A stretch of 20,465 nt of DNA from positions 1-20,465 of the IMG/VR virus record IMGVR_UViG_3300009080_000072; one strand, given 5' to 3'. The DNA comes from a virus. The position numbers were made by a program, and so were the translations under genes. The notes below the pieces were generated by a model. It did no database searches. It saw only the letters and a list, made by a program, of their open reading frames with translations, and was not told where the DNA came from. This document shows, one piece after another, positions 7,584-10,976 of this stretch (within the stretch, counting starts at the first letter, position 1; each line of letters begins with the position of its first letter).

Positions 7584-7895
7584 CTACTCCATCATTAGGA
7601 AATAAATCCGCGCGTATCCTTGTCCATCATAATCCGGTGGGCACTCGATATTCAGCGCCCCGGCAGACTCATAAACGCGCCCCGCCGGATCGGCTGCACA
7701 CGCCGATCCGGCGGTGTAGTCGTCGCAATACACGACAGACAGCACCGACGCCGGGGGCACGCTGTCAACTTTCAGGACGCGCCCGCAGTATGAGGTGCGA
7801 TAGCTGCGGATCTCCCCCGTGGTGTACCCCTCAAGATCCCCAGCGTCGGGGAGGTCAAGAGGCGCGGCGCACGACAACAACAAGGCGGAGATCAT
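7584..7895 (-). CDS. Short lipoprotein-like protein inside the tail module
   Basis: The 103-residue product begins MISALLLSCAAPLDLP. LLSC fits a lipobox ([LVI][AST][GAS]C nearly), with C9 as the would-be lipidated residue. The signal is very short and lacks a basic n-region, so lipidation is uncertain. The mature part is acidic, has four further cysteines (in SYCGRV, VVYCDD, SACAAD and NIECPP) and ends IYFLMME. The ATG overlaps the tape-measure stop (TGATG) and the next gene starts four bases after its stop, so it belongs to the tail operon. No in-frame upstream ATG or GTG is close enough to lengthen the signal. Known phage lipoproteins can block superinfection or act as spanins; a small disulfide-containing tail protein is the main alternative. 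Confidence 0.72.
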   Translation of the reverse strand: MISALLLSCAAPLDLPDAGDLEGYTTGEIRSYRTSYCGRVLKVDSVPPASVLSVVYCDDYTAGSACAADPAGRVYESAGALNIECPPDYDGQGYARIYFLMME

Positions 7896-9805
7896 CAGTA
7901 GCCCCTGTTCTGTGACGGGTGGGGATTGGTTCTCAGGTTGCGGGCGTATCGCGTCGTGCCGCTGCGCCCGGATCGGTACAGCTCTTCATCGATGTGGGTA
8001 CGTCCGATCACGGCGCGGACCACCTGCCCGCCGCCGGACAGCTTGCCGTTGTTGGCATCATCGATAAGTCGGGTAGCTGTGCTGTTCGCCACCGCGCCGG
8101 GTGTGGACATCTCTGTCTGAAGCACCCGCCGCCCGAATGACACGCGCTCATCGGGCGCAAGCGTTCCCCCGGCGGGCGTGCCGATGTGGGCAGAGGGGAG
8201 CGGGACCGCGACGATAGACGCCACCTGTGCAAGCCCCGTGGCGATCTGTGCCACCATGGCGGGCGGGCCAATGATCGGACCCAGCTCCAACGCTTTCGTT
8301 GCGCCGACATAGGTGCTGACGGTTGCCTGTGCAATGCCCGCAGCCTTGGAGACTATCGCCAGTTTACGCGCCGCCCTGCCACCCCTGGAGGCGGCGCTGT
8401 CCGCGATGCTCGCAATAGCCCCCAGCGTGGTTGCGGTGCTGTTGAGTACGGCGGTCTGTACTTCCGTGTGCAGCGCCTTGACCTTGGCTGCGATCTCGGC
8501 TTGCGTTGCGCCCTGTTTCTCCAGGTCTGCCGTCAGGGCGCGCGTGGCTTCTGCCATGTTTGCCGATCCTGTGATGTACGGACTGACATCCACCCCTGCC
8601 ACGGCGGCGGTGCGTGCCGCCTCTGCCCGCTCCTCCTCTGCGCGGGTGGCGGCTTTGAGGGCGGCAAGATCGCGCTCGAGGCGCATCGCTGCCTGTGTCC
8701 GCGCCGTCTCCACGCCCTCAAGATCCCGGTGCGTGCCTGCCAGCTCATCGAGGACGGTGATCTGATCCTGATACCGGCGCGTCAGTTCCTCCTCTTGACC
8801 GATGAGATCAGACCGGGACGTGGTGATCGATGCGTTGACCTGCCCCTGTGCGGCTGCAAGTGCGGCGGCGGCGGCTGCAAGCTCCCGCGCTGCCTGTGAC
8901 TCTGCCCGGCGGGCGTCGGCGGCTCCCCGGCTCGACGCGGCGGCGTCCTCTGCGGCCTGTGCTGTCTCTGAATAGCTGCCGATCAATGCCTGCGCGCGGG
9001 GGAGGTAGCCGTCTATGGTGCTCTCTGCGGTGCTCAGACTGTCCTTGAATTGCTGCACACTCCACTGAAAAGACTCCAGCGCGTTTGCGCCCAATGGGTC
9101 TTTGAGGCGCTCCATCGGATTGAGGCGGTCAATCATCAGCCGGGTAAACGCGTTGCTTAACAGCATCACGGCGTCGATCGTCTTTAGGATCGCCTGCGGC
9201 GTGTCCCTGACTGCCATGGAAAAGGCGGTGACAAGGACCGCGCCTTTTTCGATAGCGGGGGCAAGCTCCACCGCGATTGCAACCCCCATACCCTTGACTG
9301 CCAGCTCAGCAGCCTCCAGAGCGTCATCAGTCTCGATAAGTCGATCGATGTCCCGCTGATTAATGAAGCCGGGGAAGTCCTCCGCTTCGATCCGCAGCTC
9401 GCGGGCGTTCACCGTGAGGCGTGCCAGCCCGGCAGCGACGACACCGATCGCGCCGATCGTCAGCGCGATACCCGCCCCCAGCCCGACCATGGCGATACCG
9501 GCAGCACCCGCCGATCCGGCGGCGCGCGTCAGCCCGCCCGCCAGATTACCGAGGACACGGGAGCCTTGACCGCCCGCCCTCCCCAGGACGGTGAACCCGC
9601 TTGTGGTCATGCGGATCGATTTGGACAGCTCCACCATGGACCGATCAGTGCGTTTCACCTGCCGGGAGGTCTGCGCCATCTCCCGCCCGGTGCGCTGTGT
9701 CTTGTCCTCCAGGCGATCGAAACGCTGGTTTATCCCCGTCACAGTGCGGTTTAGGTCGGTGGCGTCACCTTCCCATACATACGTGATCGTCTTTTCTTCT
9801 GCCAT
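7895..9805 (-). CDS. Tail tape measure protein
   Basis: The tape measure spans the lumen of the tail tube, sets tail length and usually assists DNA entry. The 636-residue sequence has an N-terminal heptad-rich helix (residues about 15-65), a hydrophobic Gly/Ala segment (about 95-130, IAMVGLGAGIALTIGAIGVVAAGLA) and a long Ala/Glu/Arg coiled coil (about 280-400). The characteristic C-terminal hydrophobic block follows at about 488-535 (GIAQATVSTYVGATKALELG, PPAMVAQIATGLAQVASIVA). It lies directly after the frameshifting chaperone pair and starts within their stop codon (TGATG), as is usual. With about 0.15 nm per residue, the length predicts a tail near 95 nm. The identification is firm from composition, length and synteny. 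Confidence 0.95.
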   Translation of the reverse strand: MAEEKTITYVWEGDATDLNRTVTGINQRFDRLEDKTQRTGREMAQTSRQVKRTDRSMVELSKSIRMTTSGFTVLGRAGGQGSRVLGNLAGGLTRAAGSAGAAGIAMVGLGAGIALTIGAIGVVAAGLARLTVNARELRIEAEDFPGFINQRDIDRLIETDDALEAAELAVKGMGVAIAVELAPAIEKGAVLVTAFSMAVRDTPQAILKTIDAVMLLSNAFTRLMIDRLNPMERLKDPLGANALESFQWSVQQFKDSLSTAESTIDGYLPRAQALIGSYSETAQAAEDAAASSRGAADARRAESQAARELAAAAAALAAAQGQVNASITTSRSDLIGQEEELTRRYQDQITVLDELAGTHRDLEGVETARTQAAMRLERDLAALKAATRAEEERAEAARTAAVAGVDVSPYITGSANMAEATRALTADLEKQGATQAEIAAKVKALHTEVQTAVLNSTATTLGAIASIADSAASRGGRAARKLAIVSKAAGIAQATVSTYVGATKALELGPIIGPPAMVAQIATGLAQVASIVAVPLPSAHIGTPAGGTLAPDERVSFGRRVLQTEMSTPGAVANSTATRLIDDANNGKLSGGGQVVRAVIGRTHIDEELYRSGRSGTTRYARNLRTNPHPSQNRGY

Positions 9806-10448
9806 CAGGCCGCGCCCTCCATCTGCTCAGCGGCGCGCAGGATCGCGGCGCGTTTCATCCGATCGGTGAACTTCTCACGGGCGGCGGGTGCGCCCGTCAT
9901 GAGGTTCTTCGCCATGCGCAGGGACAGGAACGCCTCCACCTCCTCCCGCCCTGCGTCGAGGGGGAGGGGGGCGGCGGCGGCATCCGTCAGAACGAAATCT
10001 AAGCGGCCCCGTTCTGTGAGGTAAAATTTGCGGCTTGTTCCACCACCTCTGCGCGGGGGATCGACGCGGTGATCTGCTGCATCAGGACTGCGCCCACGGT
10101 CCACAGCGTCAGCGGGATCTCCGCCCCGTCAGCCGTGCGCAGTGTCACCGCCTCATCCTCGACGCTCCACACCTGAACCGGCGTCGAGGGCGACAGCCCC
10201 CAGCCCCCGATCATCACGTCGCACACCTCCGCTGCATAGCTGTAGAGGTCGCGATCCCCACGCCGGGGGCGGTACGCGGGGAGGCGCTTGCCAGCCCAAC
10301 AGGTGCCGATCAGCGCCCACATTAGCCGTCCACGGTCTGCGTCGTCGGCGTTCCATGCAGACAGCAGATCCAGCCGGGCGGCGTAGCTCTGCGGGAGGGT
10401 GACGGGCACAGTGCCCACGCCGGGGATGTCCAGGTGCTTGATCTGCAT
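9805..10448 (-). CDS. Tail assembly chaperone, -1 frameshift fusion (gpGT-like)
   Basis: A -1 slip at 10023-10029 would join the first 142 codons of the short chaperone to 72 codons of the following frame, giving a 214-residue fusion. The added T-like part reads YLTERGRLDFVLTDAAAAPL and then PLDAGREEVEAFLSLRMAKNL and a basic helix (KFTDRMKRAAILRAAEQMEG). This second frame has no convincing start of its own: an ATG at 10104 would prepend a Pro/Arg/Gly-rich shadow of the first frame and lacks a ribosome site. The stop overlaps the tape-measure ATG (TGATG). In lambda-like phages the fusion is a minor product, and its ratio to the short form matters for tail assembly. The precise ratio here cannot be read from sequence. 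Confidence 0.87.
9988..10029 (-). promoter_or_regulatory. Programmed -1 ribosomal frameshift signal
   Basis: In the zero frame the codons are GCA AAT TTT. Together they contain the heptamer A AAT TTT (10029 down to 10023), an X-XXY-YYZ slippery site. A 6-base spacer (10022-10017) follows, then a perfect 7-bp stem: CAGAACG (10016-10010) pairs with CGTTCTG (9994-9988). The 15-base loop holds the zero-frame TAG. Shift direction, spacing and structure all fit a -1 frameshift. This is read directly from the sequence. Confidence 0.92.
9999..10448 (-). CDS. Tail assembly chaperone, short form (gpG-like)
   Basis: The 149-residue product made when no frameshift occurs. It begins MQIKHLDIPGVGTVPVTLPQ and is largely helical after residue 30 (SYAARLDLLSAWNADDADRGRLMWALIGTCW). 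It sits between tail tube and tape measure, the invariant position of the lambda gpG/gpGT pair. These proteins keep the tape measure soluble and recruit tube subunits and are absent from the virion. The stop TAG at 9999-10001 falls in the loop of the frameshift hairpin. The ATG follows the tail-tube stop by three bases with only a weak ribosome site, so coupling is likely. Sequence similarity to lambda is not visible; the call rests on position and on the frameshift signal. Confidence 0.88.
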   Translation of the reverse strand: MQIKHLDIPGVGTVPVTLPQSYAARLDLLSAWNADDADRGRLMWALIGTCWAGKRLPAYRPRRGDRDLYSYAAEVCDVMIGGWGLSPSTPVQVWSVEDEAVTLRTADGAEIPLTLWTVGAVLMQQITASIPRAEVVEQAANFTSQNGAA

Positions 10449-10451
10449 GGA

Positions 10452-10976
10452 CTACGCCGGGCCGGTGACGGTGTACGATCCCAGACACATCGCGCTGATC
10501 GTGACCTTGGTAGGATCGCCCTCTTTCAGGTCATACTTGAAAATGCAGCGGGTGAAAGTGATCGTGCTGTCCGCGCCGTCTCCCCAGTCCGATCCCTCGA
10601 CGGTGAACGTCAGATCGAGGTTGTGCTGTTCGTGGCTGGCACTGACCTTTGTCCACGCCGACGCGCCGCCGGTCCCGCTGATCACGTCGAGGAGTGACGC
10701 GGGGTTTGTGGCGCTCGTTTTGGAGTTGGTGAACGTCTTGAGCTTGACGGTGAAACTGACTTCGATCGGCTGCTGCTTGCCCTTCCTGGAGGCGGCGATC
10801 GTGCTGCGGTCATACACCACGATCGTCTCATCGAGATCACCCGGCCCGATGGCAAACCCAATGTCACCGTCCTCATAGTCCACGGTGAAATCATTGGTTC
10901 CGCCGCTGTCTTTGAGCTGGACAGAGCCGTCTTTGACGACTTTGGGCATAGTGGAGGGATCGGTAAATGTAGCCAC
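10452..10976 (-). CDS. Major tail tube protein
   Basis: The 174-residue product polymerises into the tail tube. It has the expected beta-rich composition: paired strands (KVVKDGSVQLKDSGGTNDFTVDYEDGDIGF; GKQQPIEVSFTVKLKTFTNS), a central helix (NPASLLDVISG) and closing strands (NLDLTFTVEGSDWGDGADSTITFTRCIFKYDLKEGDPTKVTISAMC). The pattern matches the tail-tube/gpV-like fold. It starts at GTG with a strong AAGGAG eight bases upstream, one of the best ribosome sites in the window, consistent with a protein needed in many copies. One base separates the start from the preceding stop. It lies immediately before the chaperone pair and tape measure, which supports the call. Confidence 0.9.
   Translation of the reverse strand: MATFTDPSTMPKVVKDGSVQLKDSGGTNDFTVDYEDGDIGFAIGPGDLDETIVVYDRSTIAASRKGKQQPIEVSFTVKLKTFTNSKTSATNPASLLDVISGTGGASAWTKVSASHEQHNLDLTFTVEGSDWGDGADSTITFTRCIFKYDLKEGDPTKVTISAMCLGSYTVTGPA

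Follow-up and report, generated by a model that had tools for sequence, protein, structure and literature searches.

A very probable -1 frameshift signal with a candidate internal Shine-Dalgarno-like stimulator in a presumed G/GT-type tail assembly chaperone gene of a virus

The window analyzed here, a stretch of 20,465 bases, is a virus record whose terminase is distant kin of the terminase in Mu-like Pseudomonas phages. On its minus strand, a probable tail tube gene is followed by two overlapping open reading frames (ORF1 and ORF2) and a tape measure gene, and this gene order with the tape measure downstream is the same in several relatives. The features of this region are as follows.

10452..10976, minus strand: probable tail tube protein, directly upstream of ORF1, assigned by position and conservation and without a PHROG name
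9999..10448, minus strand: ORF1, 149 aa, G-like tail assembly chaperone (short form), named by gene order, with its zero-frame TAG at 10001-9999
3' end of ORF1, minus strand: ...GAA CAA GCC GCA AAT TTT ACC TCA CAG AAC GGG GCC GCT TAG
10040..10050, minus strand: Shine-Dalgarno (SD)-like element AGAGGTGGTGG, internal to ORF1, its last GGTGG ending 10 nt 5' of the heptamer
10023..10029, minus strand: slippery heptamer A AAT TTT (pattern X XXY YYZ, in phase, reading GCA AAT TTT)
10017..10022, minus strand: spacer ACCTCA, 6 nt, inside the 4-10 nt rule (PMC4066793)
9988..10016, minus strand: stem-loop of CAGAACG (10016-10010) and CGTTCTG (9994-9988), with a 15-nt loop that holds the TAG; -10.0 kcal/mol
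9805..10026, minus strand: ORF2, -1 frame, T-like C-terminal domain with 72 residues downstream of the junction ...ANF-YLTERGRLDFVL...
7895..9805, minus strand: tail length tape measure protein (PHROG tape-measure match, E 4.6e-9)

An earlier sequence-only reading of this DNA had described a heptamer in phase, a 6-base spacer and a 7-bp stem with the TAG in its loop, and all of these coordinates are correct letter for letter. Re-reading of the minus strand also agrees with the 149-residue short form, the predicted 214-residue fusion and the end of ORF2 on the tape-measure ATG given there. The -1 reading would yield a fusion of 142 + 72 = 214 aa, and the TGA of ORF2 overlaps the ATG of the tape measure gene at 9805 (shared TGATG). 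A short ORF whose start resembles that of a lipoprotein (MISALLLSCAAP) is found at 7584-7895 of the minus strand, between the tape measure and a 1135-aa tail protein, and similar small ORFs occupy the matching place in loci L004 and L014.

The filing of ORF1 among the G/GT chaperones is presumed from position, gene order and recoding architecture only. The gene lies between the tube candidate and the tape measure, and the tube gene is conserved upstream but carries no PHROG name. No relation to the known tail chaperones (Pfam, PHROGs, PDB) was found in either sequence or fold: neither ORF1 nor the fusion has a Pfam or PHROG match, and the AlphaFold model of ORF1 (pLDDT 88) has no structural match in PDB or BFVD. 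Known G and T ORFs have low mutual sequence similarity (PMC5009743), such that the frameshift class is not defined by resemblance in sequence.

For comparison among viruses, the tail-tube protein aligned over six loci was used as the query and led to 68 related loci. A total of 63 viral loci (window included) have enough sequence past the tube gene, with the chaperone region present. The chaperone as the query retrieved no close viral relatives other than L001/L007 (97%) and L002/L031 (67%). Searches by tblastn against cultured phages with the chaperone, the tape measure, the tube, the 1135-aa tail protein and the fusions of three relatives found nothing beyond chance; a match to Mycobacterium phage Jeon lies on the opposite strand and is meaningless. 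Scans of genome contigs were negative, as were the Rfam and tRNA scans.

In 62 of the 63 loci, a zero-frame ORF is kept together with a heptamer in phase and an ORF in the -1 frame; these include L046, in which the contig ends shortly afterwards. The sole locus without a -1 heptamer is L035 (4831-5125), in which ORF2 is in the +1 frame. Here, the shift appears to be +1, and TAC TTT CCT would permit a +1 move of the Phe-tRNA from UUU to UUC; the frame may reflect either a changed shift direction or a sequencing indel. Homologues that keep both frames and lose the heptamer had been named in the sequence-only reading as evidence that would speak against a frameshift. Such a case was seen once, in L035, and in none of the other loci (62/63). 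A frameshift layout was also observed in L018 (13226-13890), which has a 62%-identical major capsid and a different tail module; it consists of G GGA AAC, TCCTAA and then GCCCTCGCGAGGGC.

Among 31 T-type non-redundant homologues, the mean BLOSUM62 score of frame 0 drops from +0.88 to -0.53 across the heptamer, while that of frame -1 rises from -0.65 to +0.45, and the Phe at the slip site is invariant. Between the window and L031, the -1 frame score increases from 0.40 to 3.38 across the heptamer, and ORF2 is conserved only downstream of it. The independent evidence is this frame-conservation result and not the motif count, because site picking favoured such heptamers. One alternative is that ORF2 encodes a separate protein produced by re-initiation or from an internal start, with the heptamer being incidental. 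The overlap of the two ORFs, the SD-like sequence upstream of the overlap and a distant GTG (10104) that opens the -1 frame in the window are compatible with such a start. However, the -1 frame has no ATG, GTG or TTG from -6 to +5 codons of the site in any of the 36 homologues examined (0/36), in 18 of the 36 the -1 frame is closed by a stop no more than 12 codons upstream of the site, and conservation starts at the heptamer. Taken together, the absence of a nearby ORF2 start, the upstream stops and the conservation switch make independent initiation very unlikely, and the earlier statement that the second frame lacks a credible start holds across the homologues. An assembly indel or transcriptional slippage as the source of the frame change is less probable still and has next to no credibility. 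Metagenomic viral contigs do carry errors, but the architecture is common to 62 loci, and the run in the window contains only four T, with most homologues similarly short. Frameshifting of the lambda G/GT class by -1, as first proposed from the sequence, is supported by the shared architecture (62/63 loci), by the switch in conserved frame at the heptamer, and by an in-phase heptamer near the ORF1 end followed by a -1 ORF without a start.

The heptamers of 60 loci comprise GGATTTT (17), AAATTTT (12), GGGAAAC (11), GGATTTC (4), GAATTTT (3), AGGTTTT (3) and others (10); L048 and L051 (both GGGAAAC) were read after this count. AAATTTT had been singled out as worth recording, but it is the second commonest heptamer (12/60, after GGATTTT with 17), and R_RRU_UUY motifs had been described before as prone to shifting in E. 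coli (PMC4066793). Among these loci, A AAT TTT is an ordinary choice. Across loci, the A-site codon is limited to TTT, TTC, AAC or AAT; the P-site codon varies and includes GAT, GCT, GTT and GGT, not all of which re-pair well. In E. coli, A-site re-pairing matters most (PMC4066793), and the heptamer pattern in the homologues agrees with this rule.

Upstream of the heptamer by 10-14 nt lies the internal SD-like element, which is absent from the sequence-only reading and for which the comparison suggests selection at the RNA level. In the window, the SD-like sequence includes GAGGTGGTGG, and its matches are located at rule distances of 17 (GAGG), 15 (AGGTG), and 14 and 11 nt (GGTGG), in agreement with the published rule for stimulatory SDs (PMC4066793). 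The SD distance for -1 shifting is 9-14 nt, and stimulatory SDs are without competitors just upstream (PMC5009743). For pairing to the 16S 3' end, the mean energy over the 36 non-redundant sites has its minimum in windows whose start lies about 21 to 17 nt upstream, and there is almost no 16S pairing in the stretch 5' of this minimum. The published SD rule holds in 34 of the 36 homologues, compared to 27.9 +/- 2.2 with synonymous shuffling, and this count was reached in 0 of 500 shuffles.

Codon choice at the same place is strongly biased. Glu codons at positions -6/-7 across the homologues are GAG in 33 cases and GAA in none, whereas elsewhere GAG makes up about two thirds. The product probability of 33/33 GAG from the usage of each locus is 3.5e-8, and that of the 22 such codons in 23 representatives below 45% identity is 3e-5; both values ignore shared ancestry and refer to positions picked post hoc. 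This preference may alternatively be a protein or codon-context effect that involves no internal SD interaction. The Glu-Val motif is itself conserved in the protein and accounts for part of the SD signal, and the total SD pairing energy is not beyond that of synonymous shuffles (46 of 300). The excess over synonymous shuffling is confined to codon choice and the rule-based count. In contrast, GAG is used at -6/-7 even in loci that otherwise prefer GAA (7 codons of 7 loci), Glu-Val outside the site is encoded with 164 GAG and 69 GAA, and GAA is common enough where Glu occurs at codons -3, -4 and -8. A protein or context effect is unlikely, although it retains some weight, and an internal SD-like element is the preferred reading. 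In the partial library consulted, no paper links an internal SD-like element to tail-chaperone frameshifting, and no claim of priority is made.

The stem downstream of the heptamer in the window is real, yet only marginally above chance. The exact stem CAGAACG/CGTTCTG occurs once in the window. Shuffled sequences fold as well as the stem region in 5 of 200 cases (43 nt, z -2.2), in 5.5% of cases for 30 nt and in 3% for compact hairpins, but in 44% once hairpins up to 70 nt compete (p 0.44). When 60 nt are folded, another fold wins; at 80-100 nt, the stem is present in the minimum-energy fold. By the published rule, a hairpin begins 4-10 nt downstream with a G-C closing pair and has at least 7.6 kcal/mol (PMC4066793). 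The window hairpin agrees with this rule (spacer 6, -10.0 kcal/mol), which is weak evidence as 30% of its shuffles pass too. Two further structures were noted: a second strong G/C-rich hairpin at 9940-9975 of the minus strand (CCTCCCCCTC with GGGCGGGAGGAGG), about 50-85 nt after the heptamer and inside ORF2, and a candidate pseudoknot between the loop GGGGC and a downstream GCCCC, which arises easily by chance in C-rich sequence.

Relative to the window, the stem in L007 has one change from A-U to G-U, and that in L031 keeps five pairs and one G-U with one pair broken; within these three sequences only, no two-sided (compensatory) change was seen. The 29-nt stem-loop segment has the highest identity to L031 in the compared stretch (86-90% at the DNA level), which dual coding also explains. 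Across the family, hairpins of up to 70 nt anchored at the proper spacing are stronger than in dinucleotide shuffles (Wilcoxon p 0.002). Ranked among other positions of the same genes, the slip-site hairpin does not stand out significantly (p 0.56), indicating that composition contributes to this enrichment, and fixed 30-nt folding windows gave no family-wide hairpin signal (p 0.14). Ten homologues have no hairpin that agrees with the rule. In L070, L079 and L087 (GGGAAAC), hairpins of about 50 nt with -27 to -36 kcal/mol start 5-6 nt after the heptamer and have the zero-frame stop in the terminal loop; these are stronger stimulator candidates than the stem of the window.

These results bear on whether the frameshift is real with the 7-bp stem idle, such that the heptamer and the SD-like element suffice. 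The marginal strength of the stem, the lack of compensatory change, the broken pair in L031 and the ten homologues noted above are consistent with an idle stem, whereas the family-wide enrichment of anchored hairpins, the correct 6-nt spacing and the high identity of the segment to L031 argue for a role. On balance, an idle stem is a serious possibility, albeit the less probable one, and a stem that contributes to the shift is preferred.

The stop codon inside the stimulatory loop had been regarded as unusual. However, family hairpins usually contain the zero-frame stop, mostly as a result of the two sharing one stretch, and there is a precedent in SARS-CoV-2 (PMC8168617). It is true that ribosomes open the stem before terminating, as had been suggested for those that do not shift, but this holds for every passing ribosome and is not special to non-shifters. 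In SARS-CoV-2 ORF1a/1b, the stimulatory structure likewise contains the zero-frame stop, a few codons past the slip site; that system differs in its eukaryotic ribosome, its pseudoknot in place of a hairpin and its heptamer. A nearby stop raises frameshifting there, for which refolding of the structure before the next ribosome is the proposed cause (PMC8168617).

Lambda G/GT and its counterparts in long-tailed phages share with the window the order of tail tube, chaperone and tape measure, a slip near the ORF1 end, an ORF2 without its own start, and a short form beside a low-level -1 fusion, which is predicted here (PMC5009743). The window differs from lambda in having no detectable protein homology, in the heptamer A AAT TTT and in the SD-like element upstream. 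The lambda heptamer is G GGA AAG. In the G/GT class, the fusion is a low-level product that tail assembly needs and that the virion lacks. The layout of SD, slip heptamer and hairpin resembles that of E. coli dnaX and of IS911 (PMC5009743, PMC4066793), and the SD spacing of the window (10 nt for the last GGTGG) is within the 9-14 nt for -1 shifting; the genes and heptamers are different, and the stimulators of the window are candidates. Pseudomonas phage Cline (PQ571160, L091; 24127-24751) has an annotated chaperone followed by a tape measure; between the two lies a -1 ORF that is missing from the annotation, with T TTT TTC in phase upstream. A relationship to Cline was seen for the terminase alone (28%), and the slip in Cline is 132 nt before the stop.

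The site very probably directs programmed ribosomal frameshifting by -1 in a presumed tail assembly chaperone gene of the G/GT type, through a slip site and two proposed stimulators. Most ribosomes would pass AAT TTT and terminate at the TAG to produce the 149-aa protein. In a minority, the Asn-tRNA in the P site and the Phe-tRNA in the A site would slip back by one base on A AAT TTT and re-pair on AAA and TTT, and ORF2 would then be read to give the 214-aa fusion. The SD-like sequence may stimulate the slip by pairing with 16S rRNA at a distance of 10-14 nt on the 5' side of the slip site, and the hairpin may do so six bases on. The slip, its efficiency and the action of both stimulators are predicted from sequence comparison, and the chaperone role from gene order. 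Like gpG and gpGT in lambda, the two forms would act as chaperones of the tape measure and bring in tail-tube subunits.

Taken by itself, the window presents an ordinary frameshift of the known G/GT class, and the SD-like stimulator is the part worth testing. The fusion is missed by annotation pipelines that list ORF1 alone. A broader proposal, for which the chances are evenly balanced, is that these loci represent a large uncultured phage group in which tail-chaperone frameshifting would be driven by a selected internal SD as in dnaX. In this group, relaxed pairing would be tolerated in the P site (A AAT, G GAT, G GCT, G GTT and A GGT) with UUU/UUC or AAC/AAU kept in the A site, and the G:GT ratio would depend on the SD and on A-site slippage instead of on 3' structure. 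The approximately 36 non-redundant sites, with homologous genes and varied heptamers, SD strengths and hairpins, form a natural series, such that the element responsible for the chaperone ratio can be sought by direct tests.
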